From Bacteroidales bacterium (GTDB lineage: Bacteria; Bacteroidota; Bacteroidia; Bacteroidales; Paludibacteraceae): a stretch of 60,890 nucleotides of DNA. The position numbers and the translations under genes were made by a program. Within the stretch, counting starts at the first letter, position 1. The number at the start of each line of letters is the position of its first letter. The notes beneath the pieces are model-generated. The model was not told the DNA's origin. It made no database searches and worked only from the letters and a program-made list of their open reading frames with translations. Below are positions 5,344 to 46,149 of this stretch, piece after piece. The stretch spans positions 1-60,890 of the forward strand of contig JAJFVH010000161.1 in the NCBI GenBank assembly GCA_021371875.1. Direction: 5' to 3'.

Positions 5344-5400
5344 TCACAATGTGGATTTTTTTGATTTAAATGTAAAAGTATATTCATTAATTTTTGTGTC

Positions 5401-6603: not shown

Positions 6604-6677
6604 GTTGTTTGTCATTTAGAAAATTGAGACAAAATGCGTATACACGACTTCAAATTAGATACTTAAAAAAAATAAAT

Positions 6678-8693
6678 ATGAAAACATTGAAAATAAAACT
6701 TCTACCTCTATTTCTATTTCTTTCACTTTGCTTTACAAGTTATGCCGAAACAATTAAAATTTTGGCTATCGGGAACAGCTTTTCCGAAGATGCAATTGAG
6801 AATTATTTGTACGAACTTGGAAAAGCAGATGATGTTACTTTAATTATTGGCAACATGTATATTGGCGGCTGTAGCCTGGAAACACATTGGAACAATGCCA
6901 ATAATAACAATGCAGCCTACGAATATCGCAAAATAGTGAACGGAGTAAAGTCGAACACAGCGAGTACAAAGTTGGAAACAGCAATTGCCGATGAGGATTG
7001 GGATTACATTACTTTTCAGCAAGTAAGCCAGAATTCAGGGATGTACAGCACCTATTTTCCATACTTAACTAATTTGTTGGCTTATGTAAAATCGAAAGCT
7101 ACTAACCCGAATGTAAAATATGCATTGCACATGACCTGGGCTTATCAGCAAAACTCTACCCACTCAGGTTTTGCCAATTATAATAAGGATCAAATGACAA
7201 TGTATAATTCAATACTTGATGCAGCAAACCGTGCCGCCACAGCTGAAAACATCAGTATTATTATTCCTTCGGGAACAGCTATACAAAATGCACGTACCAG
7301 TTTCATTGGCGACAATCTTTGTCGTGACGGATACCATTTGGATTATAACATTGGGCGTTACACAGCTGCATGTACATGGTATGAGAAAATAACCGGAATA
7401 AATGTCCTCAACAATACTTATGCCCCTGCAAGCCTATCAGCTAAAAGCATTGAAGTAGCTCGCAAGGCAGCACACAGCGCTGTGCAGAATCCAACAAGTA
7501 TTACAGATGTTATTGTTGAATTAGAACAGCCAACAGGTAATTTTAATGCATGGAACATTACCACTGTAGGTCATAATGGGCTTAATAGTGGCATTCTTGC
7601 ATTTCCTGAAAAAAATATGACTCTGGAATGCTGGCTTAATATTGATGATGCAAGTGGTACCAATAGTGCGGGTGTAAATATAATATCTAACCGGCATAAT
7701 GGAAATCAGGGCTTTTCGGTGAATTTGGCAAACAACAGTGCAACCAGTAAAGAAGATGTACGATTTGTTTTTAAAAACACAAAAATTGATGGAACTTCCG
7801 ATCAAGCTTTTGCACTTTTTCTACCTCGTACTGCATTTTCGAATCAATGGGCGCATTTAGCTTTTGTAATTTCTTCGGATGAGCAAAAAGCCTATGCTTA
7901 TCTGAACGGCGAACTGTACAGCGTAATTGAAGATTTTTATACAAGCTGGGTAGGAAATCGAGTGACAGATCAGTTGTGGATAGGACGCTGGTACACGAAC
8001 AGTCCAACATTTTATGGCAAAATGGCGGACATCCGTGTTTGGAATGTAGCTCGAACGGCAGATGAAATAGCCGAAAACTATAACCAACGCCTGAAAGGAA
8101 CAGAAACAGGCTTGTATGTCTATTACAACTTCGATAATTTCGATCAGTCCATCATTAATGTAGCTAATCCAGGAACTAACAATGGTTCTTTGCTTCCGGC
8201 TACTACGTGGACAAATATGCACTCTTACGAAGTACTTTCCCAAAAGCCAGTAAATCTGGCTATTGCAAACAATCAGCTTACATGGGAGGCCGAAGGTGAA
8301 AGCTGGGTGGTGGAGTTTGTTGAAACAGCCAGTAAAACGGTGTTATTGAGCGAAGTGGCTGAAAATACTTCGTTCTCACTCCAAAATCTAAACTTACCAA
8401 CAGCTTCTGAGTACTTTATAAGAGTGAGAACTTTTAACAATGATGTATATTCAGATTGGGCTTCAGTAGATGTTAGCATAACCGGCTTGTCCGGAGTAGA
8501 ATCAGAAAAAATGACTATTTCGACAGAGGGGAATCGATTGATTGTTAATTCCGAAATAGCTCAACCTTTTGATCTGTTCGCTATTGATGGTCGTTTGGTA
8601 CGTTCGGTAAATTTAATTGCTGGCAGAAATGAAATTAACGGTCTTGCAAAAGGGTTTTATTTGGCAAAAAAGCAAAAAATATCGATAAAATAA
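6678..8693 (+). CDS. DUF4886 SGNH-hydrolase-like + LamG protein with T9SS tail
   Basis: ATG 6,678 is preferred over an in-frame codon at 6,600 that overlaps the previous stop, because it opens a signal peptide (LLPLFLFLSLCFTSYA). The 671-residue protein has an N-terminal DUF4886 domain (about 24-270). This is an SGNH-hydrolase relative: block I is ILAIGNSFSEDA and the Asp-x-x-His pair is in DGYHLDYN. A LamG domain (about 285-490), an Fn3-like segment and a T9SS sorting tail (about 605-671; LFAIDGRLVRSVNL) follow. It may remove ester groups such as acetyl from a polysaccharide held by the LamG part. Esterase activity is inferred from the fold; the exact reaction of DUF4886 proteins is not known to me. 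Confidence 0.78.
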   Translation: MKTLKIKLLPLFLFLSLCFTSYAETIKILAIGNSFSEDAIENYLYELGKADDVTLIIGNMYIGGCSLETHWNNANNNNAAYEYRKIVNGVKSNTASTKLETAIADEDWDYITFQQVSQNSGMYSTYFPYLTNLLAYVKSKATNPNVKYALHMTWAYQQNSTHSGFANYNKDQMTMYNSILDAANRAATAENISIIIPSGTAIQNARTSFIGDNLCRDGYHLDYNIGRYTAACTWYEKITGINVLNNTYAPASLSAKSIEVARKAAHSAVQNPTSITDVIVELEQPTGNFNAWNITTVGHNGLNSGILAFPEKNMTLECWLNIDDASGTNSAGVNIISNRHNGNQGFSVNLANNSATSKEDVRFVFKNTKIDGTSDQAFALFLPRTAFSNQWAHLAFVISSDEQKAYAYLNGELYSVIEDFYTSWVGNRVTDQLWIGRWYTNSPTFYGKMADIRVWNVARTADEIAENYNQRLKGTETGLYVYYNFDNFDQSIINVANPGTNNGSLLPATTWTNMHSYEVLSQKPVNLAIANNQLTWEAEGESWVVEFVETASKTVLLSEVAENTSFSLQNLNLPTASEYFIRVRTFNNDVYSDWASVDVSITGLSGVESEKMTISTEGNRLIVNSEIAQPFDLFAIDGRLVRSVNLIAGRNEINGLAKGFYLAKKQKISIK

Positions 8694-8741
8694 TCTGGAA
8701 AAGAATCATATCTAATTAATAATAATTTAAAATTTCGTATT

Positions 8742-10022
8742 ATGAAAAAAATGTACTTTTTTAATCGTATGTTATTGCTGGTTTCGGCAATATTAATGAC
8801 GGGTGGACTTTATGCACAAACCAATTCTTATGCGTGGGATATGTCAGCAACAAGACCTGGGGCTACCGATGGAATATCTTGTGGAACGCTTGGATTTACA
8901 GAAACAGATATTACGATAGAGCTATGGCTTAATATACCAACTTCCAACTTCAATAATGGAGTAACAATTGCTTCAACAAGACATGATGGAGTGAAGGGAT
9001 TTAGCCTTGATGTGACCAGCGATGGCAAACTAAGGGGCTTTTTCCGGAATGACAATGGTGATAAACTGAATGGCAGAACTGATTTTGTTTTTCCGTTTTT
9101 CTTTGAAAAAGCAGATATTGTTGATAAATGGGTACATATTGCGATTGTTTTCTCGTCGACGAATAATATCGCACGTAGTTATTTGAACGGGGAAGTTTAT
9201 CAGGATTTGGTAAAGACCACAGATCCGTATGAACCTTATAATATTGGATGGATTGGAAACGGCACGGGTGCCTTACGTTTAGGATACTGGTATGCTGCAA
9301 GTGCAAAATTTTATGGAAAAATAGCCGATTTCCGTATTTGGTCTGTGGGTCGTACAGATGCAGAAATCAAAGCTAATTATAATAAAAACCTGACGGGCAC
9401 TTCTGAAGATAATCCGGGATTATACCTTAATTACAGATTTTACACTTACGAACGTGGCTTTATTAATGATGCAAACCCCACTGTTGCTACAAACAAAGGC
9501 TGGTGTAATCCTGAAGCTGCCTGGAACACTTATTACACGCGTGAAACACTCTCTTTGCAACCACAAAATCTTTCTATCGCTGACGGATTGCTTACCTGGG
9601 ATACAAGTACTGGAGCTTGGGAAGTAAATGTATATAAAGCAGATGACAACACCTTGGCTTTCTCTGATACAATCAATACAAACTCACTATCGCTTAATAG
9701 TATTGAAGAATTATCAGAAGGAGTTACATATTTTGCAAAAGTAAGAACTCAAAATAACGGTTTTTGGTCAGGGCAAGTTACTTCAGAACCATTTACAGTT
9801 ACAAAAATATCAACGGGTGTTGATAAAATTGAGCAACAAACGACTGTTCGTGTAAGCAATGGCTCATTGATTATTAATACTGAAAATTCTCAAACTGTCA
9901 ATATTTATGCTGTTAGTGGACAATTGATCCGACGTATTAATATAGTTGCCGGAGAAAACATCGTATCAAACCTTCCTAAAGGCATATATTTGGTTGATAA
10001 TCAAAAAGTAGTTGTCAGATAA
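8742..10022 (+). CDS. Secreted LamG/Fn3-like protein with T9SS sorting tail
   Basis: The 426-residue protein has a signal peptide (about 1-25, ending GLYAQ), a LamG-like domain (about 30-245; DITIELWLNIPTS, KWVHIAIVFSS, ADFRIWSVGRTDAEIK), an Fn3-like segment (about 285-350) and a T9SS sorting tail (about 365-426; VNIYAVSGQLIRRINI, PKGIYLVDNQK). No catalytic module is seen. Its linker after LamG (GFINDANPTVATNKGWCNP) is nearly the same as that in the 16,241 protein, so these two form one sub-branch and the 5,401/6,678 pair another. Likely role is carbohydrate binding at the cell surface. It is followed by an intrinsic terminator. Confidence 0.78.
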   Translation: MKKMYFFNRMLLLVSAILMTGGLYAQTNSYAWDMSATRPGATDGISCGTLGFTETDITIELWLNIPTSNFNNGVTIASTRHDGVKGFSLDVTSDGKLRGFFRNDNGDKLNGRTDFVFPFFFEKADIVDKWVHIAIVFSSTNNIARSYLNGEVYQDLVKTTDPYEPYNIGWIGNGTGALRLGYWYAASAKFYGKIADFRIWSVGRTDAEIKANYNKNLTGTSEDNPGLYLNYRFYTYERGFINDANPTVATNKGWCNPEAAWNTYYTRETLSLQPQNLSIADGLLTWDTSTGAWEVNVYKADDNTLAFSDTINTNSLSLNSIEELSEGVTYFAKVRTQNNGFWSGQVTSEPFTVTKISTGVDKIEQQTTVRVSNGSLIINTENSQTVNIYAVSGQLIRRINIVAGENIVSNLPKGIYLVDNQKVVVR

Positions 10023-19121: not shown

Positions 19122-20441
19122 CTATTCCAACATCCTGTTCACCATTACTCTCAGATTGTATCCCAATACACTCCAGGCAACTTTTGAACAGAATTTTTCA
19201 AACCCTTCCCATAATACTCTTTGCAGGTCGAATCCTCTTTTGAGGTTGGATATGACCGCTTCAGTGGTTCCTCTCCACTTTTTGAGCATTCTTTCTATTT
19301 CCGGCGAACTGACAATGTTTTGCAAACTTTTGGTTACTTTGGTAAATACGATATTGGTTAGTCCCAATTCTTTGCATTTTTCAAGGTTTTCCTGGCTGCA
19401 AAAGCCACCATCGGCGGAAGAACTTTCGGGGATACGAGTATAATTGGTTTTAATTCTTGTAATACTCGGAACAAGCAGACCTTTGTCGCTTGGATTACCT
19501 TCAAATACATCATGATCTAATATCATGCAACTTGAGCCCCTTGAAATCAATACTTTATGACCAAACTCGACCTCTCTTTGACCTTTCACCAGTATATCGG
19601 TATGGGTTTCGAACACCGAAAATACTTTGTCGGAATTCGCAACCTTTTCGCCTTCTATCTGGAGTTTATAGGCGTTTCGATACACTTTTATCATCAGTGG
19701 TAAAAATGCTTTCAATTCGGGTTTTGCCTTGATAGGGGTTGAACTGTTTCTTACGGCTGCGAATGATTCTAAAATAAGACGCTTCAAAGTCTCCAAATAA
19801 GGATCAAACAAACTTGGTAAATTTTCTTTCTTACTGTTGTTTATTTCATAATTGAGTTTCTTGGCTGCTTTGCGTTGCTCATCCAATCGGTCATTATCAT
19901 CTTTTTTATCTTTTTTGATCCGTTTCAACAAACGGGTAGCGGTTTCAATACAATCAAGCACTAAACTATTGTTGGTCGGGTAATGAACGTTAGTCTCTAT
20001 ATTGGTGGTATCGGTACTTATTTTATCTACTGTTTCAATACCCTCTGATATGGCTATGTTATTGATTTCTAAAATAATTGATTTGATTGATTTTTCACTT
20101 ATTTTCGATATGTATTTTTGCATGACACAATAACTATAACCTTGATTATCTTCCAATCTCAAAAACATGGAGCATATTTTTGAATCATACATATCTACTT
20201 CTAATTCCCTGTATGTAAGACGTTTTATCTCCTTGTATATGGCAGCCCGCAGCACTTGTTCCACCGTAGGTGAATCTTTGCGACCAAAATTGCTATCTTT
20301 GATGCCGGAAAGAACATCATGGCTGACCAATTTTACAAAATGAGGGTTTTTGTCCAACAGTATGTCGAAAAGGGCTAATTCGGGATGTAAACCCCAAATA
20401 GGCGTGTCGAAACGGAGCTTCAATTCATTGTATAGTTTCAT
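19122..20441 (-). CDS. ISNCY-type DDE transposase
   Basis: This is the transposase of an insertion sequence, full length at 439 residues. Diagnostic features are TDTTNIETNVHYPTNNSLV (about residues 142-160, holding the first catalytic Asp), SADGGFCSQENLEKCKELG (second Asp region) and a C-terminal RGTTEAVISNLKRGFDL block with the likely catalytic Glu. The order and wording of these blocks match ISNCY-family transposases as I know them. There is no internal stop, so it may be active. I could not define terminal inverted repeats with confidence in the flanks 18,887-19,121 or 20,442-20,606, so the ends of the element are not stated. It is the only convergent gene in the first 55 kb, consistent with insertion between two operons. 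Confidence 0.82.
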   Translation of the reverse strand: MKLYNELKLRFDTPIWGLHPELALFDILLDKNPHFVKLVSHDVLSGIKDSNFGRKDSPTVEQVLRAAIYKEIKRLTYRELEVDMYDSKICSMFLRLEDNQGYSYCVMQKYISKISEKSIKSIILEINNIAISEGIETVDKISTDTTNIETNVHYPTNNSLVLDCIETATRLLKRIKKDKKDDNDRLDEQRKAAKKLNYEINNSKKENLPSLFDPYLETLKRLILESFAAVRNSSTPIKAKPELKAFLPLMIKVYRNAYKLQIEGEKVANSDKVFSVFETHTDILVKGQREVEFGHKVLISRGSSCMILDHDVFEGNPSDKGLLVPSITRIKTNYTRIPESSSADGGFCSQENLEKCKELGLTNIVFTKVTKSLQNIVSSPEIERMLKKWRGTTEAVISNLKRGFDLQRVLWEGFEKFCSKVAWSVLGYNLRVMVNRMLE

Positions 20442-21172: not shown

Positions 21173-21619
21173 ATGACATTAAAAACAGAAACAAAGCACC
21201 TCACTGTGACCGGATTTACGGGAGATGCAAAAACAACCGCCGCGTCGAAAGCAAAAGCCGGCAAGGATAATTTAAAGGAAGCCAGGGCAAATGTTATGGC
21301 AGCCAAAGATAATTTCAGCGAAGCTTTTGAAAAAACAGTCGGGGATTTCAAAACCGAAGCTGCTCTAAAGTTGAACGAAACGGAACATAAAATTGCTGAT
21401 TATAAAAAGAAAATAACAACGGCAAGTGATGAAATTGGAACAATATATCAGTATCAAGTGGATAAGCTGGAGAAAACCAAGATAGCATTAATGGCCAAAC
21501 TGGAAGAATATAAAGAAGAAGGCGAAGATAAATGGGATTCGTTTAAACATGAATTTACGGATGATTTGAAAAACTTTGAAAAATCAATAACAGATTTTGT
21601 AGAGAGTTTGAAAAAATAG
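21173..21619 (+). CDS. Helical coiled-coil stress-type protein
   Basis: The 148-residue protein has no signal peptide and is almost entirely predicted helix, rich in Lys, Glu and Ala. It has heptad-like spacing from about residue 30 onward (NLKEARANVMAAKDNFSEAF, YQVDKLEKTKIALMAKLEEY). It resembles the small coiled-coil proteins called sll1863-type stress-response proteins in other bacteria, but that label rests on general resemblance. It is probably in one transcript with the preceding lipoprotein. No enzymatic function is likely. Confidence 0.7.
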   Translation: MTLKTETKHLTVTGFTGDAKTTAASKAKAGKDNLKEARANVMAAKDNFSEAFEKTVGDFKTEAALKLNETEHKIADYKKKITTASDEIGTIYQYQVDKLEKTKIALMAKLEEYKEEGEDKWDSFKHEFTDDLKNFEKSITDFVESLKK

Positions 21620-21766: not shown

Positions 21767-21877
21767 ATTAACAATAATAAGCCTGTTTTTATAGTACAGT
21801 CTCCAAAAATACACGACGAAAGTAACTTAAACTCCCCATCAGTGGCTGGGGGCAATTATCGTAAAATAATCAGTATC

Positions 21878-22945
21878 ATGATAAAAGTAAAAAAAGAAGG
21901 AATTATCTTAGAAAAAAGAGACTTGGAATTTGAAAACGCAGGCGTGTTGAATCCGGCGGTCATAAAAGAAGGCGATAGCGTTCATATTTATTACAGAGCT
22001 GTACAGGATGGGAATTTTTCCAGCATTGGCTATGCCCGCTTGGATGGACCGCTGCACCTTGCTGAGCGTTGGGATAAACCGATTATGGAGGCTGAATTTG
22101 ATTATGAATCGCATGGTGTGGAAGATGCCCGGATTGTAAAAATTGATGATCTTTATTACATGACTTATACCGTTTACGATGGTATAAATGCACGTGGCGC
22201 ATTGGCTACATCAAAAGATTTGAAAAAGTTCAAGAAACACGGCATTATTGTTCCGCCTATTACGTACTCTAAGTTTGTATTCTTGGCCGAGTCAACCGGC
22301 AATGTGGACGAAAACTATTACCGCAATCATAAGTTCTATTATCAGGAAGCCGATCCTGAAAAAAAAATGTTGCTTTGGGATAAAAATGTGGTTTTCTTTC
22401 CACGTCGTATCGATGGCAAATTGGTATTTCTTCATCGCATTCGACCCGGAATTCAAATTGTGTCGGTAACAAGTTTAGATGAATTGACCAAAGAATTCTG
22501 GAAAGCCTATTTCCCCGACTTTCATAAGTACATCGTTATGGATCCTGTTTATAAACATGAATACGAATATATTGGCAGCGGTTGTCCGCCCATTGAAACA
22601 AAGGACGGTTGGTTGCTTATTTATCACGGCGTTGAATCCACCGAACGTGGTCTTGTGTATTCTGCCTGCGCTGCATTACTCGATTTAAATGATCCTTCGA
22701 AAGAAATTTCACGTTTGCCATATCCTTTGTTTTCGCCCGAGTTTTTATGGGAGCGGAGAGGCGAGGTTAACAACGTGGTTTTTCCCACCGGTACGGCGCT
22801 GTTTGGCAATACTTTGTTTATTTATTATGGCGCTGCCGATGAGCGTATTGGATGCGCAACAGTAAGCCTGTCGGCATTGGTGCAGGAATTGGTTCTAAAT
22901 ATCCGCAAGGATGAAACGAATATTAAAGTAGTGTCTTCGAGTTAG
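21878..22945 (+). CDS. Glycoside hydrolase family 130 (beta-mannoside phosphorylase-like)
   Basis: GH130 enzymes phosphorolyse or hydrolyse beta-mannosides in the cytoplasm. ATG 21,878 is chosen over an in-frame GTG at 21,842; it gives 355 residues with no signal peptide. Diagnostic parts are FENAGVLNPAVI near the N-terminus, the conserved GVEDARI with the likely catalytic Asp83, and the five-bladed propeller pattern through PTGTALFGNTLFIYYGAAD. The closest style is the PH1107-related subgroup, whose members act on mannosyl-glucose, beta-1,4- or beta-1,2-mannosides; which one applies cannot be told. It opens a cluster with two GT4 enzymes and a PIG-L deacetylase, so it probably trims or recycles the glycan made there. 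Confidence 0.85.
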   Translation: MIKVKKEGIILEKRDLEFENAGVLNPAVIKEGDSVHIYYRAVQDGNFSSIGYARLDGPLHLAERWDKPIMEAEFDYESHGVEDARIVKIDDLYYMTYTVYDGINARGALATSKDLKKFKKHGIIVPPITYSKFVFLAESTGNVDENYYRNHKFYYQEADPEKKMLLWDKNVVFFPRRIDGKLVFLHRIRPGIQIVSVTSLDELTKEFWKAYFPDFHKYIVMDPVYKHEYEYIGSGCPPIETKDGWLLIYHGVESTERGLVYSACAALLDLNDPSKEISRLPYPLFSPEFLWERRGEVNNVVFPTGTALFGNTLFIYYGAADERIGCATVSLSALVQELVLNIRKDETNIKVVSSS

Positions 22946-23013
22946 TATATTCGGGCTTTCCCGTTTTATGGAAACAACTATACGACTTTAATGAAAATAA
23001 TAAAAATACTTGC

Positions 23014-25359
23014 ATGAAAAACAATAAAGTAAAACAGCATGTTGGCAATAAGCCGGCATCTATGAATAATCCTTTGTTTCAGCCTGTTTTGACGGACAAC
23101 AAAACCGCTTCGGAAATCCGGTTCAGAAACAGGGAAACAGGAAATGACTTAATACTTCCCGAAGTATTATTTATCACTTCTTATCCTCCGCGCGAATGCG
23201 GCATTGCAACCTATTCGCAGGATTTGATTATGGCATTGGATAATAAATTCAGCAATTCATTATCCATTAGAGTTTGTGCCTTGGAAACGGGTGATGTTAG
23301 TTACGATTATCCCGATGAGGTGAAATATACGCTTAATGCGTCACAGATCGCTTCTTTCCTGGATTTGGCAAAAAAAATTAATGAGGACAATTATATTCAA
23401 CTGGTTCTTATTCAGCACGAATTCGGCTTCTATAAAGATCAGGAACAAGCATTTCTACAATTATTGTACGGACTTGAAAAACCGGCAGTGGTGGTTTTTC
23501 ATACGGTACTTCCAAATCCCGATGCACGGTTAAAATTGGAAGTGAGAAATATCGTGGCAGCCTGTCAGTCAATTGTTGTTATGACAAAAACATCGGCTGA
23601 TATACTAATGACTGATTATGGTATTGCTAAACAAAAAATATCGGTGATAGCTCACGGAACGCACTTGGTGCCTCATTTAAGTGAAAAGTTTCTGAAAAAC
23701 AAATACGGTTTAACCGGTCGTAAAGTGCTTACAACCTTTGGGTTGCTCAGTTCAGGGAAAAGTATTGAAACCACGCTGGAAGCGTTACCGTCCATAATAA
23801 AACAATGTCCGGAAGTAATATTCCTGGCAATTGGAAAAACACATCCCGAAGTGGTAAAAAACGATGGAGAAGTTTACCGCAAAAGTCTTGAACAGAAAGT
23901 AGAAGAACTTGGCATCCAAGACCACGTAAAATTTATCAACAAATACCTCGATTTGCCAACCTTACTCGAATATTTACAATTAACCGATATTTATCTTTTT
24001 ACCACCAACGATCCGAATCAGGCCGTGAGCGGCACGTTTGCTTATGCCATGAGTTGTGGTTGTCCGATTATTTCTACGCCCATTCCGCATGCCAAAGAAG
24101 TGCTGACGGAAGATACCGGAATCATCTTTGATTTTCGGAATTCGGAACAATTGGCTGAAGGCGTTAACCGCTTACTTAATGATTACCCCTTGCGTAAAAG
24201 CATTATCACCAATACGCTGCAGAAAATAGTATCTACCGCCTGGGAGAATTCGGCAGTTGCTCACGCCATGTTATTCCAATCGATATCCGGAAATAAAATC
24301 CGGATGCAATATAATCTACCGGTAATTAACCTGCATCACATAAAAGCAATGACAACCGAAGTTGGAATGATCCAGTTTTCGAAAATAAATCAACCGGACA
24401 TCAAGTCAGGTTATACCCTCGATGATAATGCCAGGGCGCTTGTTGCCAGTTGCATGTATTTAAAATCGACCGGCGATAAAACTTGTATTGAAGATATAAA
24501 AACATACCTTGATTTTATCCGGTTTTGTCAGCAGTTTGAAGGAGATTTTTTGAATTATGTAGATCAGAAAAAGAACTTTAGCGGCCAAAACCAGGAAGTG
24601 AATTTAGATGATTCAAACGGAAGAGCTGTCTGGGCATTAGGTTATTTGATATCACTAAAAAGTAAATTGCCCAAAGAAATTGTATTGGAAGCCGAAACTA
24701 TTTTTCAAAAATCGTTGAATCATATACGTACGGTTAATTCAACACGTGCGATGGCTTTTGCTATAAAAGGGATATTTTATTATCATGAAGCGGTAAAATC
24801 CCCCGAAAATATTGACTTGGTAAAAACCTTAGCCAACCGGTTGGTGCAAATGTATAAGCACGAATCGAGTACAAAATGGGAATGGTTTGAAGGATACCTG
24901 ACTTATGCCAACAGTATTTTGCCCGAGGCCATGTTGTATGCCTGGTTGATGACCGGCGAAAGCATTTATAAAGACATTGCCCGAACATCATTTAATTTTT
25001 TATTGTCACATACTTTTAACGAGAATGGAATTGAAGTGATTTCGAACAGAGGTTGGTTTCAAAAAGGCCAGGAAGAAGGACATTTTGGCGAACAGCCTAT
25101 TGATGTTGCCTACACCATTATGACCTTGAGTGAATTTTACGATGTATTTACGGACGAAGATTACCACCAAAAGATGGAAACATCATTCAACTGGTTTTTG
25201 GGTAACAACCGATTACATCAAATTATTTACAATCCATGTACAGGTGGTTGTTATGACGGATTGGAAGAAACACATGTGAATCTCAACCAGGGCGCCGAGT
25301 CGACCATAAGCTATCTACTGGCACGCTTAACTGTAGAAGAATATAAAAATGAACAGTAA
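23014..25359 (+). CDS. GT4 glycosyltransferase fused to an (alpha/alpha)-barrel-like C-terminal domain
   Basis: The 781-residue cytoplasmic protein has a GT4 (GT-B fold) N-terminal half (about 48-430). It begins LFITSYPPRECGIATYSQDL, with GLLSSGKSIETTLEA at the donor-binding domain and VSGTFAYAMSCGCPIISTPI near the usual C-terminal motif. The classic Glu-x7-Glu pair is not obvious here. The second half (about 440-775) is helical and resembles a six-hairpin glycosidase toroid (YTLDDNARALVASCMYLKS, KWEWFEGYLTYANSILPEA). Fusion of a transferase and a glycosidase-like domain suggests a glycan-length-controlling or processive enzyme, as an inference. Its stop overlaps the next start by 11 nt. The donor sugar is unknown; mannose is plausible given the GH130 neighbour. 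Confidence 0.82.
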   Translation: MKNNKVKQHVGNKPASMNNPLFQPVLTDNKTASEIRFRNRETGNDLILPEVLFITSYPPRECGIATYSQDLIMALDNKFSNSLSIRVCALETGDVSYDYPDEVKYTLNASQIASFLDLAKKINEDNYIQLVLIQHEFGFYKDQEQAFLQLLYGLEKPAVVVFHTVLPNPDARLKLEVRNIVAACQSIVVMTKTSADILMTDYGIAKQKISVIAHGTHLVPHLSEKFLKNKYGLTGRKVLTTFGLLSSGKSIETTLEALPSIIKQCPEVIFLAIGKTHPEVVKNDGEVYRKSLEQKVEELGIQDHVKFINKYLDLPTLLEYLQLTDIYLFTTNDPNQAVSGTFAYAMSCGCPIISTPIPHAKEVLTEDTGIIFDFRNSEQLAEGVNRLLNDYPLRKSIITNTLQKIVSTAWENSAVAHAMLFQSISGNKIRMQYNLPVINLHHIKAMTTEVGMIQFSKINQPDIKSGYTLDDNARALVASCMYLKSTGDKTCIEDIKTYLDFIRFCQQFEGDFLNYVDQKKNFSGQNQEVNLDDSNGRAVWALGYLISLKSKLPKEIVLEAETIFQKSLNHIRTVNSTRAMAFAIKGIFYYHEAVKSPENIDLVKTLANRLVQMYKHESSTKWEWFEGYLTYANSILPEAMLYAWLMTGESIYKDIARTSFNFLLSHTFNENGIEVISNRGWFQKGQEEGHFGEQPIDVAYTIMTLSEFYDVFTDEDYHQKMETSFNWFLGNNRLHQIIYNPCTGGCYDGLEETHVNLNQGAESTISYLLARLTVEEYKNEQ

Positions 25360-26140
25360 AACTCTGAAGTCAATCGCTGTCATTGTGGCACATCCCGATG
25401 ATGAAACATTGTGGGCGGGAGGAACAATACTCGAATATCCAACGAACAATTGGTTTATCGTTTGTCTTTGTCGTGCAAGCGATACCGAACGGGCGTCCAG
25501 ATTTTATAACACTTTAAAATTATTGAAAGCGAAAGGTATTATGGGCGATCTAGATGACGGACCAGACCAATATCCGTTAGACGAAAAGAAGTTGGAAGAT
25601 GAAATTTTGCGGTTATTGCCCGGCACCCATTTCGATTTGATTATAACCCACGATTCAGCCGGTGAGTACACGAAACATCTGCGGCACGAAGAAGTGAGCA
25701 AAGCAGTCGTAACGCTCTGGCACGATGAAAAAATAACAGCCAATGAACTCTGGACATTTGCTTATGAGGACGGTAATAAAACTTATTTTCCACGAGCGAT
25801 AGAAAATGCTGATATTTTTGAATCGCTTCCTGAAAAAATCTGGTTGAGAAAATATAAATTAATTACCAAAACCTACGGCTTCAAGGAAAATAGTTGGGAA
25901 GCCGAAACAACACCATTAGCCGAAGCTTTCTGGCGATTTAAAAAATCATATCACGCTATGAAACCGGAAAAGAAATTTGATGATGATATAAAGGTCTCTA
26001 AATTATCTATTTTCAAATTATTATATAACGATTGTTTTATTCATACATTTGAGAAACAAAGCTGGGAAGCCGAAACAACGCCATGGACAATAGCTTTCCG
26101 GCGATTTAAAAATTCACTTAACGTAGAAAATAAATTATGA
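25349..26140 (+). CDS. PIG-L family (LmbE-like) N-acetyl-sugar deacetylase with repeated C-terminal tail
   Basis: PIG-L enzymes are zinc hydrolases that remove N-acetyl groups from GlcNAc-containing molecules. The motif IVAHPDDETLWAGG (His15, Asp17, Asp18) is at the N-terminus, and KHLRHEEVSKAV supplies the remaining metal-binding His. The catalytic domain is about residues 5-185 of 263. The tail is unusual: SWEAETTPLAEAFWRFKKS is repeated 56 residues later as SWEAETTPWTIAFRRFKNS. The gene overlaps the GT4 before it (11 nt) and the small gene after it (ATGA), so all three are translationally coupled. A role in deacetylating a product of the neighbouring GT4s is likely. Mycothiol- or bacillithiol-like chemistry is possible but not supported by a BshC- or MshC-like gene here. 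Confidence 0.85.
   Translation: MNSKTLKSIAVIVAHPDDETLWAGGTILEYPTNNWFIVCLCRASDTERASRFYNTLKLLKAKGIMGDLDDGPDQYPLDEKKLEDEILRLLPGTHFDLIITHDSAGEYTKHLRHEEVSKAVVTLWHDEKITANELWTFAYEDGNKTYFPRAIENADIFESLPEKIWLRKYKLITKTYGFKENSWEAETTPLAEAFWRFKKSYHAMKPEKKFDDDIKVSKLSIFKLLYNDCFIHTFEKQSWEAETTPWTIAFRRFKNSLNVENKL
25895..26116 (+). repeat. Direct repeat inside the PIG-L gene tail
   Basis: Two 54-nt copies (25,895-25,948 and 26,063-26,116) start TGGGAAGCCGAAACAAC and align without gaps, about 45 of 54 positions identical by hand count, with a 168-nt period. A weaker third copy lies in the next gene (GAAGCCGAAACC at 26,242), in a different reading frame relative to the PIG-L gene. Confidence 0.7.
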
Positions 26141-26400
26141 AAACAGAAAAAGAATTGAGTATATTCCAAACTCCAAGCATTGAGATGTTGAAATCGCTCT
26201 ATTATAGAAGTAAAGCCTATGTGCTTGATAAGAGTAGATTTGAAGCCGAAACCAATTGTTTTACAAAGGTTTCGACACAAATTATTGAGCCGATTGTAAA
26301 AAGATCGTGGAATAAGATTGAAAAAGAATTGAAAATTTTCAAACAAACAACGATAGAAACCCTAAAATCATCGTATTATGAAAGTATTGGTATTGTATGA
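26137..26400 (+). CDS. Small protein built of the repeats found in the PIG-L tail
   Basis: The 87-residue protein begins at an ATGA overlap with the PIG-L stop and overlaps the next GT4 start by 23 nt. It contains two copies of a motif, EKELSIFQTPSIEMLKSLYY and EKELKIFKQTTIETLKSSYY. Between them is SRFEAETN, matching SWEAET in the PIG-L tail. It therefore looks like a continuation of the same roughly 56-residue repeat, shifted into another frame. There is no signal peptide or membrane segment. It may be an adaptor that links the deacetylase and transferase, or a by-product of repeat expansion kept for translational coupling. The family is unknown to me. Confidence 0.55.
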   Translation: MKTEKELSIFQTPSIEMLKSLYYRSKAYVLDKSRFEAETNCFTKVSTQIIEPIVKRSWNKIEKELKIFKQTTIETLKSSYYESIGIV

Positions 26401-27520
26401 ATATCCGCCAACCCCGGGAGGATTAGCTACACAGGGAGATTTGTTATACAAAGGACTGTTGGAACTGGGTATTGACGCGCATGCCGTTCACTTCGAATCG
26501 GCTCAGGAAAAGGAATGGTATTACCGCTGGTTCAAACCTGATGTGGTAGTTGGAGTTGGCTATTGGGGCTACACGCCTCATTTGATTCTTCATCCGTTGC
26601 GATACGGTGTTCAGCCGGTTCCCTGGCTGGTAGCCGATGGTTATATTGCCAATTACCAGGAAGTACTGAACGCGCTTCCGCTTATTTTGGTAACATCCAA
26701 TTGGGTAAAAGAAATGTATGTCCGCGACGGAATTGATGGGAGTAAAATCGAAGTATTACCGGTGGGTTGCGATACTGACTCTTTCAGGCCATTCAGCAAG
26801 GATGATCCGAAAATTATTGCCGTACGCGAATCATTAGGCGTTGCCCCCGACCAGTTAATGATACTGACGGTAGGCGGTGATGCCGCTTCAAAAGGAGCGC
26901 AGGAAGTAATGCAGGCGATGGCTATTATCGATAACCGGGCACCCGATTGGAAATATGTGTGTAAAGTATGGCCGCAACCACGCACCAAACTTCAAAACCT
27001 GTCCGACCTGGAAATGGCGACGCATCTGGGTATCGAAAAAAATGTAACCTATGCCACCAATACTATTTCACGAACCTTTATGCCTTATCTGATCGGGGCT
27101 TGCGACATCTATGCAGCGCCATCCCGACTGGAAGGTTTCGGAATGCCGCAAGTGGAAGCCGGAGCCTGCGGAAAGCCGGTTCTGAGTATTAAAGCAATGG
27201 GAATGCTGGATACGCTGATTCATGGCGAAACCGCTTTTCTGGCTGAAGTGGCAAGGAAAATTGTGGTCAACGAAGTAATGCTTGGTGGCGAATCGGGATT
27301 TGAAGAACATCATAAAGTAGTATTCAATACACCGCGAACGGTAGATTACCGGGCAAATGTACAAGATATTGCCAAGTATATGCTGACCCTTATGAACGAT
27401 GCACCCTTACGCGAAAAGATGGGAAAAGCCGGACGCGAACGCGTGGTAGCCAATTTCGACTATCGCGTGGTAGCTAAAAAGTTTGTACAGATAATGAGTG
27501 ACAAATTGGGAATAAAATAA
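26378..27520 (+). CDS. GT4 family glycosyltransferase
   Basis: The 380-residue retaining GT-B glycosyltransferase has N-terminal MKVLVLYEYPPTPGGLATQG and a donor-site region starting MILTVGGDAASKGAQEVMQA. The hallmark Glu-x7-Glu is in LEGFGMPQVE (Glu252, Glu260). The protein is cytoplasmic with no membrane segment. It starts inside the end of the preceding small gene, so it is translationally coupled to the deacetylase pair. It is not an obvious BshA, since the acceptor-side loop differs from what I would expect. Donor and acceptor are unknown. Together with GH130 and the other GT4 it suggests synthesis of a mannose- or hexosamine-containing glycan. Confidence 0.85.
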   Translation: MKVLVLYEYPPTPGGLATQGDLLYKGLLELGIDAHAVHFESAQEKEWYYRWFKPDVVVGVGYWGYTPHLILHPLRYGVQPVPWLVADGYIANYQEVLNALPLILVTSNWVKEMYVRDGIDGSKIEVLPVGCDTDSFRPFSKDDPKIIAVRESLGVAPDQLMILTVGGDAASKGAQEVMQAMAIIDNRAPDWKYVCKVWPQPRTKLQNLSDLEMATHLGIEKNVTYATNTISRTFMPYLIGACDIYAAPSRLEGFGMPQVEAGACGKPVLSIKAMGMLDTLIHGETAFLAEVARKIVVNEVMLGGESGFEEHHKVVFNTPRTVDYRANVQDIAKYMLTLMNDAPLREKMGKAGRERVVANFDYRVVAKKFVQIMSDKLGIK

Positions 27521-27725
27521 TTCTACTTTGACAGATTAATTATATGTCGTCCCTCCGGGACTTTAAGGGTTATTTGTCTCCCTGTTTTTATCAATATGCT
27601 CGTGCCTACGGCACTTTTTTAACCTCGTAGAGGTTTGCTATTGGTAAAAAATAAGTACAATTTCTACATACAAAGTCCCGTAGGGACGTGATATATCTAT
27701 CAATTTCTAATCTATCAAAGTAGAA
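27521..27725. repeat. Nested palindromic intergenic element
   Basis: The outer arms TTCTACTTTGACAGATTA (27,521-27,538) and TAATCTATCAAAGTAGAA (27,708-27,725) pair with one mismatch. Inside are four short palindromes: GTCCCTCCGGGAC (27,549-27,561), GTGCCTACGGCAC (27,602-27,614), AACCTCGTAGAGGTT (27,621-27,635) and GTCCCGTAGGGAC (27,675-27,687). Three of the four have a GTA or TAC centre. It fills the 257-nt gap before the DUF6496 gene and could serve as a transcript end for the GT4 operon. Confidence 0.65.
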
Positions 27726-27777
27726 ATAAGGTGCTGATGAGGTGATTTTAAAATTGAAACTAATTAAAACTACAAAA

Positions 27778-27948
27778 ATGCCACTAAAAAAAGGAAAGTC
27801 GAAAAAGGTGATTTCGGACAATATTGAAGAGATAATGCACAGCTATCACGAAAAGGGAACGATAGGAACATCAAGCCCTGCGTCGAACGAAAAAGCACAG
27901 AAACAGGCTATAGCAATAGCTTTCAGCCTGGCAAAAAAGAAGAAATAA
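27778..27948 (+). CDS. DUF6496-type small basic protein
   Basis: The 56-residue protein starts at ATG 27,778 (MPLKKGKSKKVISDNIEEIM); an in-frame GTG at 27,742 is less likely. It ends KQAIAIAFSLAKKKK. The N-terminal PLKKGKSKKVIS with a C-terminal QAxAIA helix is the DUF6496 pattern, a small protein widespread in stress-related loci. Its function is unknown; its charge suggests nucleic-acid or ribosome contact. It precedes the glycosidase gene by 10 nt and is probably co-transcribed with it. Confidence 0.75.
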   Translation: MPLKKGKSKKVISDNIEEIMHSYHEKGTIGTSSPASNEKAQKQAIAIAFSLAKKKK

Positions 27949-27958
27949 ATTGATAGTT

Positions 27959-29155
27959 ATGAAAGCAACTGACTTACAAGAAATTGAAGATGCAAAAAAA
28001 GTGGCGCTCGAAGTGTTGCTCCACAATACACACGGGCCATTTATGGGACTTCCACGTACGGCAGGTTGGGGTTATCCCGAACCTTACACGCGCGATTTGA
28101 TGTTTTCCATATTGGGAATTGCTGTTACGGGAAATAGAGTATTGCTGGACAGCATCCGGAAAGTATTGCAAACATTGGCTGAAAATCAAACGGAACGAGG
28201 TCATATTCCTTCGCTGGTGCACGATAAAGAAGACCGGGGATCGAGCGATACTACGCCTTTGTTTTTGCTGGGTACAGCTATTTTCAGGAAAGTAACGGGC
28301 GAAACGGAATTTCTGCATGAAGCTGTTGAAAAAGCGCTTACGTGGATGGAATACCAAAGTCCGTCGGATCGTTATCTGGTGGCGCAACAACCCACCAGCG
28401 ACTGGCGCGACGAACAATGGGTAACCGGTTACGGCTTGTTTGTGAATACCATTGTGTACAGCTATCTCCGGTTGTTGGGAAGACACGAAAGAGCCGAAAG
28501 CGTACATCGCGAAATGAGCCGGTTTACCATAACCGGAGGAACCATTCATCATCACGTCCACGAAGGGCTGGTGGTAAAACACAAGCCCTATTATGCATTC
28601 TGGTCGTACAAAGTGCACAGCAGCGAACGGTTCGATTTGCTGGGAAACAGTCTGGCAATTCTTTCGGGAATAGCTTCACCTTCGCGGGCAGACGAAATGG
28701 TTTCGTGGATTGAAGAAGAATGTGCAGCTATGCAAAAACGGGGTGATCTGGCCGTTGATTTGCCGCCCAATTTCTTCCCCTATATTAATCCCGAAGATCC
28801 CGACTGGCATCCGCGATATGCCCAATTTAATAATCCGGGCGAATATCATAACGGTGGTATCTGGCCATTTATTTGCGGATTTTACGTGGCGGCATTAGTT
28901 GCGGCAAAACGGTATACGCTTGCCCGAGAAAAACTGGTGGCGCTAACCCGATGCGTAAAACTATCCATTTCGGGGAAAGTTGAATTTGGTTTTAATGAAT
29001 GGATCAAAGCACAGGATGGGAAACCCATGGGGCAGGACTGGCAAACCTGGAGTGCAGCGCTTTACTTGTATGCTGCTAAATGTGTGGAAGAAAAAAACAC
29101 CCCGTTTTTTGATGAGGTACGAGGCTATACATCTGATGCTGTAATTACGAAGTAA
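27959..29155 (+). CDS. (alpha/alpha)6-barrel glycosidase, debranching- or invertase-like
   Basis: The 398-residue cytoplasmic protein starts at ATG 27,959 (an in-frame TTG lies 9 nt upstream). Motifs typical of six-hairpin glycosidases are WGYPEPYTRDLMFSI, TSDWRDEQWVTGYGLFVN, YHNGGIWPFICGFYVAAL and GQDWQTWSAALYLYA. The pattern fits amylo-alpha-1,6-glucosidase (GDE_C) or GH100 neutral invertase relatives. Acidic residues in the DWRDEQ block and the Glu in GEYHNGGIWP are candidate active-site positions. Reaction and substrate are open. As part of the GH130/GT4 cluster it may release or trim the same glycan. There is no signal peptide. Confidence 0.75.
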   Translation: MKATDLQEIEDAKKVALEVLLHNTHGPFMGLPRTAGWGYPEPYTRDLMFSILGIAVTGNRVLLDSIRKVLQTLAENQTERGHIPSLVHDKEDRGSSDTTPLFLLGTAIFRKVTGETEFLHEAVEKALTWMEYQSPSDRYLVAQQPTSDWRDEQWVTGYGLFVNTIVYSYLRLLGRHERAESVHREMSRFTITGGTIHHHVHEGLVVKHKPYYAFWSYKVHSSERFDLLGNSLAILSGIASPSRADEMVSWIEEECAAMQKRGDLAVDLPPNFFPYINPEDPDWHPRYAQFNNPGEYHNGGIWPFICGFYVAALVAAKRYTLAREKLVALTRCVKLSISGKVEFGFNEWIKAQDGKPMGQDWQTWSAALYLYAAKCVEEKNTPFFDEVRGYTSDAVITK

Positions 29156-29195: not shown

Positions 29196-29504
29196 ATGGA
29201 AAAATTAAACGAAAACAAATACCCGCTTGTCAGACAAAAAGGTAACGAAAAGAAGATTATTTTACCCGGATATCCAACCTATCCCGATAGTGAAGATATT
29301 TACAATCAAGCTAAAGAAGAAAAAGAAATTGATCCGGAAGAAATTTCCAAATTCAAAGAGGATGTTTCGGATGATGAATTGGATATACCCGGCGCTGAAT
29401 TGGATGACAAACAGGAAGAAATTGGAAGTGAAGATGAAGAAAATAATTATTATAGTTTGGGTGGAGATGATCATGATAATCTGGAAGAGAATTCAGATAA
29501 ATAG
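29196..29504 (+). CDS. Small acidic protein of unknown function
   Basis: The 102-residue protein is strongly acidic in its second half (DIPGAELDDKQEEIGSEDEE, then NNYYSLGGDDHDNLEENSDK). I recall near-identical C-termini in many Bacteroidota proteins without an assigned function. The N-terminus (YPLVRQKGNEKKIILPGYPT) is basic. It is probably disordered and lacks a signal peptide or membrane segment. It lies 40 nt after the glycosidase and is probably in its transcript. Confidence 0.7.
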   Translation: MEKLNENKYPLVRQKGNEKKIILPGYPTYPDSEDIYNQAKEEKEIDPEEISKFKEDVSDDELDIPGAELDDKQEEIGSEDEENNYYSLGGDDHDNLEENSDK

Positions 29505-29699: not shown

Positions 29700-30155
29700 A
29701 TGAAAACGAACAAAATGAATAAAGTTTTGATTGCCCTTAGTTTTGATCCTACTGCTCTGAGAATTGCAGAAGTAGGTTCTACGTTAGCTCACAGATTAGA
29801 CGCCGAATTGGTTTTACTTCATGTTATCGAAGACATGGCTACATACACTTTAAATTATCAGATGATGGGTCCATTTCAGTTGGATAATGTAGTAGAAGTG
29901 AAACAAGCATCTCAAGACTTTCTTGATAAAGTAAAACTTCACCTTGGCGATGAAACAATACTAACCGTGATAAAAGAAGGCGATTTTGCTGAAGATATTT
30001 TAGATACAGCCACAGAATTAGATGTCGATATAATTGTTATGGGTTCTCATAGTTCTAAATGGTTAGGAAATAATAGGTTGGGAATTGTATCTGACGATGT
30101 CATACAAAAAACAACTATATCGCTTTTTATCATTCCAACAATAATGAGAGATTAA
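29700..30155 (+). CDS. Universal stress protein (UspA family)
   Basis: The 151-residue cytoplasmic Usp domain runs the full length. It opens KVLIALSFDPTALRIAEVGS, has LVLLHVIED after the first helix, and IIVMGSHSSKWLGN toward the end. The nucleotide-loop pattern (Gly-2x-Gly-9x-Gly) is only partly kept, so ATP binding is uncertain. Usp proteins aid survival under energy or oxidative stress. It is a single-domain, single-gene unit bounded by palindromic elements on both sides, next to phosphoketolase and the oxidative-stress genes. Confidence 0.88.
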   Translation: MKTNKMNKVLIALSFDPTALRIAEVGSTLAHRLDAELVLLHVIEDMATYTLNYQMMGPFQLDNVVEVKQASQDFLDKVKLHLGDETILTVIKEGDFAEDILDTATELDVDIIVMGSHSSKWLGNNRLGIVSDDVIQKTTISLFIIPTIMRD

Positions 30156-45743: not shown

Positions 45744-46124
45744 ATGAAAGAGTATAAAGAATTGGGTGTTTGGATGGATCATTCAAATGCCATATTAATG
45801 GAGCTTTACAATCACACGATTGATTCAAAAAAGCTCATGATTAAACCTGTATTAAATGACGAAAACAAGGCGGATGATACACATGTAATTCAAAAACATT
45901 CGAAGGAACAACAGCAACATCAAGCTGCTTTTTATAAAGAAATAAGCGATATAATTAAAAATTACCAGAATGTCCTGTTGTTTGGCCCGACTGATGCCAA
46001 AAACGAATTATTCAACCTGCTGAAAGCCGATCATTCTTTTGATAATACCAAAATTGAATTACGAAATACGAATAAAATGGCGGAAAACAAAATATACGAA
46101 TTTGTTGTTGAGCGTTTTAGATAG
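45744..46124 (+). CDS. eRF1/Pelota-like small protein (host-attachment-type family)
   Basis: The 126-residue cytoplasmic protein begins ELGVWMDHSNAILMELYNH. It has a long polar insert and then NVLLFGPTDAKNELFNLLKA, the turn shared by eRF1 domain-3-like 'host attachment' or 'translational machinery' proteins. Function is unknown; relation to ribosome rescue is inferred from the fold type. It follows cbpA-cbpM by 48 nt, which again points to stress. The gene ends just before a 21-bp tandem array, and the opposite strand of its 3' end carries a spurious open frame. Confidence 0.72.
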   Translation: MKEYKELGVWMDHSNAILMELYNHTIDSKKLMIKPVLNDENKADDTHVIQKHSKEQQQHQAAFYKEISDIIKNYQNVLLFGPTDAKNELFNLLKADHSFDNTKIELRNTNKMAENKIYEFVVERFR

Positions 46125-46149
46125 AGAAGGCCGCTTTGATAAAAAAGAA

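Follow-up and report, generated by a model that had tools for sequence, protein, structure and literature searches.

The closest precedents for the locus described here are a beta-1,2-mannoside cluster of Thermoanaerobacter and the mannogen of Leishmania. The available sections of the report on Thermoanaerobacter sp. X-514 present the genes Teth514_1785-1796 as a beta-1,2-mannoside/GDP-mannose cluster, proposed to supply mannose-1-phosphate, and it resembles our locus in that GH130 beta-1,2-mannoside phosphorylases devoid of signal peptides are encoded beside a GT4 mannosyltransferase and a mannose-1-phosphate guanylyltransferase (PMC4264767). However, it has its own ABC transporter genes and a GH5 enzyme, and the same sections name no PIG-L, GH100-like or barrel-fused GT4 protein. 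Leishmania mannogen is a beta-1,2-mannan energy reserve that also involves GH130-fold enzymes and mannose-1-phosphate, but its eukaryotic GT108 proteins are both transferase and phosphorylase, and no GT4, PIG-L or GH100 partner is mentioned in the accessible part of the article (PMC8950772).

A GT4 transferase is also paired with a PIG-L deacetylase in mycothiol and bacillithiol synthesis (MshA/MshB and BshA/BshB), whereas in our case the scores are far under the cut-offs for these enzymes and a GH100-like glycosidase is kept in 14 out of 14 loci. The best fold match of this glycosidase is with the GH100 neutral invertases InvA and InvB (5goo, 5z73), a Glu of InvB being aligned with its E347, but identity over the fold is ~16% and nothing near the set indicates sucrose. 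We found no description of the set in the literature searched (open-licence papers and a few subscription journals, preprints excluded); in the available part of PMC9820247, GH130, PIG-L and glycosyltransferase occur together only as entries of a CAZyme table.

Gene content of the locus

The window (the whole stretch of 60,890 nucleotides analysed) contains, at positions 21878-29155, seven co-directional genes, all on the + strand. All were present where the sequence-only reading had placed them, with families by Pfam. We call the GT4-barrel and GH130 genes module 1, and GT4b, PIG-L and the GH100-like gene module 2. The features of the region are:

21173..21619, + strand: sll1863-family stress-response protein, upstream, non-core neighbour (NF052504, 40.6 bits, cut-off 35)
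21878..22945, + strand: GH130 mannoside phosphorylase-like enzyme, module 1 (Pfam PF04041 Glyco_hydro_130, E 1.9e-50; E-D-x-R motif)
23014..25359, + strand: GT4 glycosyltransferase fused to an all-helical domain ("GT4-barrel"), module 1 (781 aa; Glycos_transf_1, E 9e-20)
25349..26140, + strand: PIG-L/LmbE-type deacetylase, module 2 (PF02585, E 1.7e-10; HPDDE and HxxH)
26137..26400, + strand: 87-aa repeat ORF resembling the repeat tail of PIG-L, no family
26378..27520, + strand: GT4 glycosyltransferase "GT4b", module 2 (Pfam E 5.5e-22)
27778..27948, + strand: DUF6496-like 56-aa basic protein (22.1 bits, just below the Pfam cut-off of 24)
27959..29155, + strand: GH100/GH63-like glycosidase, module 2 (Pfam GH100, E 3e-12; GDE_C, E 6.4e-10)
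29196..29504, + strand: acidic 102-aa protein
29700..30155, + strand: universal stress protein (Usp), downstream, non-core neighbour (Pfam Usp, E 2.6e-21)

Adjacent genes overlap by 11 bp (GT4-barrel/PIG-L), 4 bp (PIG-L/repeat ORF) and 23 bp (repeat ORF/GT4b), and a 257-bp gap lies 3' of GT4b. The GH130 gene starts with ATG; an alternative GTG start at 21842 is possible. Since all seven proteins lack both a hydrophobic N-terminus and any clear membrane segment (the highest mean over 19 residues is 1.56), their sequences suggest that all of them are probably cytoplasmic. Among the loci searched, only those of the window's own genus yielded the repeat ORF and the DUF6496 gene, so that the wider core comprises five genes: the seven-gene system initially proposed holds for these five, which recur widely, but not for the other two.

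Predicted enzymes

The GH130 protein matched its Pfam family with 172 bits (cut-off 26) and scored 197 bits against the NCBIfam model for beta-1,2-mannobiose phosphorylase, below the curated equivalog cut-off of 450, and 107 bits against that for the beta-1,2-mannosidase BT3780 (cut-off 550). Its closest solved relatives are the beta-1,2-mannoside phosphorylases 9fj8 and 7fip. The E-D-x-R motif is present in every alignment row printed, and the YHG histidine and an arginine are kept. In the available text of PMC8950772 and PMC4599007, the activities given for GH130 concern beta-mannosides, with Uhgb_MS also listed with an alpha-1,2 product. The beta-mannoside chemistry previously suggested for this gene is supported. 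The portion of PMC4599007 at hand opposes the basic phosphate-binding residues of GH130 phosphorylases to a glutamate pair in hydrolases. The residue before "IG", basic in 7fip and 9fj8, is Tyr in the window protein, the printed rows having Tyr, Asn or His at this site; phosphorolysis is, therefore, not assured.

The AlphaFold2 model of GT4-barrel confidently shows two domains (pLDDT 90.7, pTM 0.89). It has the GT-B fold and the Pfam Glycos_transf_1 match of a GT4 enzyme, and its C-terminal half, unnamed by Pfam, is all-helical and probably an (alpha/alpha)6 barrel, the barrel type being our interpretation. An E-x7-E motif is typical of GT4. At this site the GT4-barrel family has Q336 (48/48 rows) and Y344 (47/48), and this replacement by Q-x7-Y means that the donor or the chemistry may differ. 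GT4b, which shares 81-93% identity with the 11 members from Bacteroidota it was compared with, has the E-x7-E motif (E252 and E260 in 9/9 rows). In Foldseek searches with GT4-barrel, PimA ranked first and PimB' second, other GT4s being nearly tied. Enzymes of the GT4 and PIG-L types act on lipid acceptors in the case of PimA, PimB' and PIG-A/PIG-L and, together with the first rank of PimA, these precedents would fit a role in building a glycolipid or surface glycan at the cytoplasmic face of the membrane. We consider this unlikely, as the recurring neighbours include no recognised flippase or glycan polymerase (most neighbours were without a family scan), the partners of phosphorylase or hydrolase type suggest intracellular turnover, and the seven proteins have no clear membrane segment.

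HPDDE and HxxH are the zinc residues of PIG-L/LmbE deacetylases and were conserved in 10/10 PIG-L rows. The top PDB matches of this protein were weak, namely PH0499 (E 0.0024), which we take to be a diacetylchitobiose deacetylase, and MshB. The N-acetylhexosamine chemistry proposed from the sequence agrees with these data. GT4b is distantly related to MshA/BshA and PIG-L to MshB/BshB2, and BshA and MshA profiles matched all 9 GT4b rows (best E 3.1e-20). They might, accordingly, make a low-mass glucosamine conjugate akin to mycothiol or bacillithiol, by GT4 and then PIG-L, to be completed by another enzyme. This appears very improbable: GT4b of the window scored 66.6 bits with MshA and 40 with BshA (curated cut-offs 462.5 and 273.7), PIG-L scored 25 bits with BshB2 (cut-off 195.25), and the glycosidase kept in all 14 loci has no place in thiol synthesis. 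The sequence-only reading would have been refuted by a BshA/BshB pair with bshC elsewhere, which does not hold here: we did not find bshC in the window genome (88% complete), in any of five same-genus relatives or in any of 15 archaeal and Patescibacterial carriers, 21 of 26 tested genomes in total. On this result and the low scores we reject bacillithiol or mycothiol for the window. The gene was present in 5 of 25 carriers or relatives (G746, G750, G877, G1087 and the genome of L074). These five, the Bacteroidota carriers tested outside the window's genus, have it elsewhere in the genome, which counts for the conjugate, and there a thiol route is only less likely.

The best Foldseek match of the GH100-like protein was the invertase InvB (E 3.5e-6, with a medium-confidence model, pLDDT 65). 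All 12 rows in the alignment of this putative glycosidase matched GH100 and GDE_C and conserved D46, D148, D151 and E347.

Distribution and linkage of the two modules

Retrieval by GT4b alone yielded 14 new loci belonging to Bacteroidota, Patescibacteria and one archaeal phylum, with module 2 intact in all of them. GT4-barrel was found in 12 of the 14 new GT4b genomes; G746 and G750, from one genus, carry GT4b without it, and in G1087 a long distance separates it from module 2. In the archaeal phylum (194 genomes), GT4-barrel occurred in 9/9 GT4b genomes versus 12/194 overall (centre included; p 4e-12 when it is left out), p values being only a guide because related genomes are not independent. 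In the Patescibacterial draw, module 1 occurred in 3/3 GT4b genomes, centres included. Concerning module 1 itself, GH130 and GT4-barrel were no more than 5 kb apart in 65 of the 80 named loci, which are the best-scoring 80 among 578 confirmed and are skewed to Bacteroidota. The Patescibacterial draw had 31 carriers; loci of 20 of them were compared, and 16 of these showed the same proximity. GH130 also lies next to GT4-barrel in culturable Bacteroidota such as Flavobacterium tiangeerense (L073) and Ferruginibacter paludis (L075). Among the 31 Patescibacterial carriers and the 12 archaeal ones, several have GT4-barrel only as a one-half match or with broken frames and, as only the best 2-10 candidates per genome were scored in the large draws, absences in them may be misses. 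A class-level search with GT4b retrieved its own genome only (1/295).

The modules are adjacent, with at most one gene between them, in L098, L103, L104, L107, L109, L142, L143, L159 and L163. In L159, a single run of seven genes comprises the two modules plus a further GH130 and a further GT4, and L168 has GH130, a deaminase, PIG-L and GT4b in a row. The set is, therefore, conserved far beyond the strain of origin, so that the other refuting outcome named by the sequence-only reading, a cluster confined to this strain, does not hold either, and this linkage and the lack of membrane segments favour the conserved, probably intracellular set suggested before. Its recurrence in unrelated, small-genome bacteria and archaea (some genomes keeping it measure only 0.6-1.4 Mb) indicates that the five genes probably constitute one undescribed pathway making and recycling an internal sugar compound with mannose and, probably, glucosamine.

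On plasmids, GT4-barrel was detected in 28 records, five of which were opened, and GT4b gave no match at 1e-20. The GH100-like protein matched five plasmid records (Deinococcus, Variovorax and Gemmatirosa; 27.6-30.6% identity) and one short piece (36%); two neighbourhoods were opened, the set being absent from one and the other having no annotation.

Stress genes surround the set within the window's genus, the window included, as well as GT4-barrel/GH130 on two sphingomonad plasmids, and in L105 GrpE-, DnaK- and DnaJ-type genes directly precede GH130. Usp relatives occur near the set in L030, L032, L033, L034, L158 and L160. Downstream of the set in the window, Pfam identified Usp, phosphoketolase, ferritin-like, catalase and DnaJ-type (CbpA) proteins, confirming the neighbours from which a link to stress had been proposed, whereas the stress role itself is suggested by these neighbours only. 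In the other archaeal and Patescibacterial loci scanned (unsystematically for stress genes), the neighbours were mostly involved in sugar metabolism. Stress genes at these sites, the absence of module 1 from G746 and G750, which do have module 2, and the distance between modules in G1087 would be expected if two unrelated modules travelled together in stress islands. That explanation seems to us quite unlikely, given that the modules co-occur in the archaeal and Patescibacterial draws and lie side by side in nine loci.

Proposed function

Outside Bacteroidota, GDP-mannose genes and those of a ROK kinase, glucosamine-6-phosphate deaminase and sugar-phosphate isomerases are among the neighbours. 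A deaminase gene is located within 3 kb of PIG-L in 5/9 archaeal loci (three above the NagB cut-off, those of L162 and L166 scoring under it) and was not found near the set in the other 4/9; the ROK kinase was found in 4/9 archaeal loci and in the Patescibacterial L143 but not in 5/9 archaeal loci, and neither gene was found near the Bacteroidota loci compared. A mannose-1-phosphate guanylyltransferase gene adjoins GT4-barrel on 2 of the 5 plasmids opened, one of them also with an isomerase and a phosphomannomutase, and L119 contains guanylyltransferase-like and phosphomannomutase-like genes. Such GDP-mannose synthesis genes adjoining GT4-barrel indicate synthesis. Mannose as a component is favoured by these genes, by the GH130 activities given above and by the PimA and PimB' ranks of GT4-barrel, and glucosamine by the deaminase and ROK kinase genes.

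Our preferred reading, to which we assign a probability of roughly 0.4, is that the two modules work as one system in the cytoplasm, producing and recycling a saccharide with mannose and, probably, glucosamine; we infer the sugar donors, acceptors, step directions, product and role (reserve or stress). In module 1, the GT4 half of GT4-barrel would make a mannoside from GDP-mannose, GH130 would reversibly add or remove beta-mannosyl units as mannose-1-phosphate, and the helical half, as a glycosidase-like domain, would act on the same product. In module 2, GT4b would transfer an N-acetylhexosamine, to be deacetylated by PIG-L, and the GH100-like enzyme would later release the sugar. In the archaeal loci, the freed sugar might enter glycolysis via the ROK kinase and glucosamine-6-phosphate deaminase. 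The saccharide would likely serve as a small internal reserve or protectant.

The same enzymes could instead operate only in salvage, degrading Man-GlcNAc-type saccharides, imported or derived from the cell's own glycans, with the GT4s as reversible phosphorylases or nucleotide-sugar synthases. In favour of this, archaeal and Patescibacterial loci have glucosamine-6-phosphate deaminase, ROK kinase, isomerase and glycolytic genes next to the set, an MFS transporter gene is located within the set in L107 and close to it in L167, PH0499 is the top PDB match of the PIG-L profile, and GT4 includes trehalose phosphorylases (PMC8950772, in the part available). However, of the 27 loci compared just two have the MFS gene, an AI-2E-type transporter occurs near the set in four loci, all from the window's genus, two GT4s are more than degradation would be expected to need, and GDP-mannose synthesis genes lie beside GT4-barrel, making pure salvage a possible but doubtful explanation.

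Patescibacteria and small-genome archaea retain few biosynthetic pathways. A five-gene saccharide system present in some of them and also in Bacteroidota would, on our two-module reading, indicate an internal reserve or protectant. More tentatively, bacteria and archaea might share a pathway for the synthesis and breakdown, inside cells, of a mannose-glucosamine reserve saccharide not seen before, using a GT4 in which Q-x7-Y has replaced the catalytic E-x7-E and which carries its own glycosidase-like barrel. The set provides defined enzymes to assay and a likely partner for many generically annotated GH130 and GT4 genes, some of which are paired on conjugative plasmids from environmental bacteria.

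The genes outside the core vary in arrangement. The DUF6496-like gene sits between GT4b and the GH100-like gene in L029, L030, L033 and L034 and was not found in L031. In L034 (genome G021, of the window's genus), the part matching the repeat ORF is fused to PIG-L in a 351-aa protein. The acidic 102-aa protein is also encoded downstream in five same-genus loci and, in L074, between GT4-barrel and PIG-L.

The gene set in the window

The genome holding the window (2.97 Mb, 88% complete) comprises 233 contigs, one of which is the entire window. Among the named genomes scanned, its nearest relatives belong to Bacteroidota, so its source is taken to be an uncultured member of that phylum. Its positions 21878-29155 contain seven genes in a single direction, and the gene families named for them in the sequence-only reading agreed with our family searches. 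Neighbouring genes overlap by 11, 4 and 23 bp. One gap of 257 bp lies between the unfused GT4 glycosyltransferase gene (GT4b) and the DUF6496-like gene; it carries inverted-repeat arms with GTCCC..GGGAC cores (27549-27689) that may represent a terminator or a small mobile element. These arms have three matches across the window with at most one mismatch, against 0.02 expected; two of the three overlap each other, one on each strand. Two further features were recorded elsewhere in the window:

19122-20441, minus strand: transposase-like ORF of 439 aa (Pfam DDE_Tnp_1_6, 25.6 bits against a cut-off of 25.1), separating a run of secreted-type genes from the stress and saccharide genes
46059-46391, minus strand: ORF built of a repeated motif (LPGLYIE...), probably a tandem repeat in the DNA and not a gene

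We give a probability of about 95% to the set being a conserved system, which we divide into two modules: a GT4 transferase fused to an all-helical domain (GT4-barrel) with GH130 (module 1), and GT4b with PIG-L and a GH100-like glycosidase (module 2).

Distribution of module 1

A search of 35 other genomes from the same genus gave close matches to GT4-barrel (62-91% identity) in 13 (G002, G004, G005, G008, G015, G016, G019, G021, G023, G024, G027, G029 and G032), some of them ending at contig ends, and G001 had a match at 36% only. PIG-L, GT4b and GH100-like genes were also present at the GT4-barrel loci of G016 (ending inside the GH100-like gene), G032, G027, G005 and G021 (with a split GT4b). 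PIG-L and GT4b extended up to the contig ends in G008 and G019, the G023 locus had PIG-L and small genes without GT4b, those of G024, G015 and G029 had only GH130 and GT4-barrel of the set, and those of G002 and G004 ended at contig ends. Because gene content varies in this way, module 2 is patchy even within the genus. At the G027 locus (L031, 4787-14850), GH130, GT4-barrel and PIG-L are tandemly duplicated, and what is left of a third GT4-barrel (115 aa) lies between the copies; at that of G005 (L033, 7768-8978), GH130 was not found ahead of GT4-barrel, although the locus has all the other genes of the set.

The GT4-barrel alignment, run against named genomes, gave 578 confirmed stretches. 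Among the best 80, which we analysed, GH130 lay within 5 kb of GT4-barrel in 65 and was not found at that distance in L054, L058, L063, L068, L082, L088, L090, L092, L094, L113, L115, L119, L120, L132 and L133, some of them near contig ends. In Patescibacteria, 31 of 379 genomes drawn had a GT4-barrel match, and GH130 was within 5 kb in 16 of the 20 carrier loci fetched (all except L180, L182, L185 and L190). The transferase and helical halves were separate, closely spaced matches in 13 of the 31 carriers (e.g., G385, G599, G650), some of which may be broken frames; in the eight fetched (L185-L192) they occupied separate reading frames, indicating that the two parts of the fusion also exist as separate proteins encoded side by side. 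GH130 also adjoined GT4-barrel on four of the five plasmids opened out of 28 with GT4-barrel records (Ilyobacter, Sphingomonas, Sphingobium and Rhizobium; L047, L048, L049 and L050), the Deinococcus plasmid being the exception. These four were typed as conjugative. GDP-mannose genes and chaperones were also present on the Sphingomonas and Sphingobium plasmids, and an AGE epimerase on that of Rhizobium.

Distribution and history of module 2

Among the same best 80 of 578 loci, all three module 2 genes were within 8 kb of GT4-barrel in six (L074, L098, L103, L104, L107, L109), and GH100-like occurred without the rest of the module in three (L101, L105, L108). To avoid the bias of loci found through GT4-barrel, we searched separately for GT4b around chosen centre genomes. 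Centres included, it was present in 3 of 379 Patescibacteria, 5 of 395 Bacteroidota and 9 of 194 genomes of the 'archaeon ARS1414' phylum. In all 14 new loci (L142, L143, L157-L168), PIG-L was within 1 kb of GT4b and GH100-like was present, in 12 at up to ~1.6 kb, in L161 at 2.5 kb and in L164 at 7.4 kb. GT4-barrel and GH130 were in the fetched stretch of nine (two GT4-barrel genes cut at its end); genome-wide, 12 of the 14 GT4b genomes had GT4-barrel, which was not found in G746 and G750. Twelve of the 194 archaeal genomes carried GT4-barrel (two with the transferase half only), including all nine with GT4b. Without the centre, 8/8 archaeal GT4b genomes had GT4-barrel versus 11/193 overall (hypergeometric p 4e-12). 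The corresponding figures were 3/3 in Patescibacteria (2/2 without the centre, p 0.006) and 3/5 in the Bacteroidota draw.

In the GT4b, PIG-L and GH100-like trees, the Bacteroidota sequences grouped together with full support, separately from those of archaea and Patescibacteria. Archaea were a single group in the GT4b and GH100-like trees, not in that of PIG-L, and Patescibacteria in that of PIG-L only. Identity to the window among Bacteroidota was 81-93% for GT4b and 36-77% for GT4-barrel where the locus has it. A single entry of module 2 into Bacteroidota as a unit, followed by spread, would fit these sequences, and strong constraint on GT4b would be expected to produce the same identity pattern.

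Structure and residues of the enzymes

No Pfam name was assigned to the C-terminal half of the 781-aa GT4-barrel protein. In its AlphaFold2 model (pLDDT 90.7, pTM 0.89), the top two fold matches of the GT-B half were PimA and PimB', with MshA, HepE, BshA and further GT4s scoring almost as high. The helical half, whose helices suggest an (alpha/alpha)6 barrel, matched by fold and by profile (E 1.8e-24) the Yersinia protein 7tem, named solely as a putative exported protein. The norm in GT4 is an E-x7-E motif; in place of its first and second glutamates GT4-barrel has Q in 48 of 48 aligned sequences and Y in 47 of 48, respectively. K249 and R289 are invariant, and D470, D471, D533, D748 and E762 of the helical half are kept in all 48.

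GT4b retains both E-x7-E glutamates (9/9 sequences) and PIG-L its HPDDE and HxxH motifs (10/10). The last gene of the set encodes a predicted GH100/GH63-type glycosidase with D46, D148, D151 and E347 in 12/12 sequences; its medium-confidence model (pLDDT 65) had GH100 invertases as first fold matches, and E347 aligned by profile with a Glu of InvB. The window GH130 scores nearest to beta-1,2-mannoside phosphorylases and lacks a basic residue that the solved phosphorylases 7fip and 9fj8 carry ahead of 'IG'.

Neighbouring genes and possible function

We clustered leftover genes within 7 kb across 27 loci and scanned selected neighbours for families. Glucosamine-6-phosphate deaminase family members, each within 3 kb of PIG-L, occurred outside Bacteroidota in L164, L165 and L168 (scores 241, 279 and 237.5, above the NagB cut-off of 236.9) and in L162 and L166 (135 and 142, below it); all five fit this family far better than 6-phosphogluconolactonase. 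The L168 run reads GH130, deaminase, PIG-L, GT4b. Other neighbours outside Bacteroidota were a ROK kinase (L143, L161, L162, L165, L166), phosphoglucose/phosphomannose isomerase (L143, L104), a mannose-6-phosphate isomerase-type cupin (L161 and, by BLAST, L165), phosphomannomutase/phosphoglucomutase (L165) and a GHMP kinase (L103, L161). Deaminase and kinase were each not found near several of the compared loci, nor near those of Bacteroidota; the window and its genus have stress-type genes as partners instead.

GH130 enzymes act on beta-mannosides and, in one case, also with an alpha-1,2 product, according to the available parts of PMC4599007 and PMC8950772. Given these activities, the GH130 scores and, in some genomes, GDP-mannose genes next to GH130 and GT4-barrel, module 1 would carry out mannoside synthesis and turnover, and we hold this mannose part of the scheme to be fairly probable. 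In module 2 an amino sugar is likely in view of PIG-L and the deaminase, with the chances of the glucosamine part evenly balanced. Use as a reserve or protectant is a more tentative proposal. The detailed scheme is weakened by the Q-x7-Y change in GT4-barrel, the basic residue missing from GH130, the two GT4b genomes without module 1, the loci (Bacteroidota included) without nearby deaminase or kinase, and an MFS transporter in two of the 27 loci (L107 and L167, outside Bacteroidota), which would suit a set that only degrades Man-GlcNAc-type saccharides. The closest arrangement in the accessible literature is a Thermoanaerobacter cluster (part of PMC4264767) and the closest role that of mannogen in Leishmania (part of PMC8950772). 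According to the available part of PMC7143001, a complete genome of Microgenomates (Patescibacteria) encodes two GH130 enzymes that lack signal peptides, for which it independently suggests a part in intracellular sugar metabolism.

Upstream of the set, relatives (L029, L030, L033, L037 and others) carry a trio of genes, for proteins of 113 aa and 128-132 aa and for an AI-2E-family transporter of 361-370 aa. This trio was not seen in the window, where an sll1863-type gene and one for a small lipoprotein-like protein take its place, as they do in L027. In L105, a 'bacterium' MAG with GH130, GT4-barrel and GH100-like, GrpE-, DnaK- and DnaJ-type genes directly precede GH130/GT4-barrel (4225-9974), recalling the chaperones of the sphingomonad plasmids.
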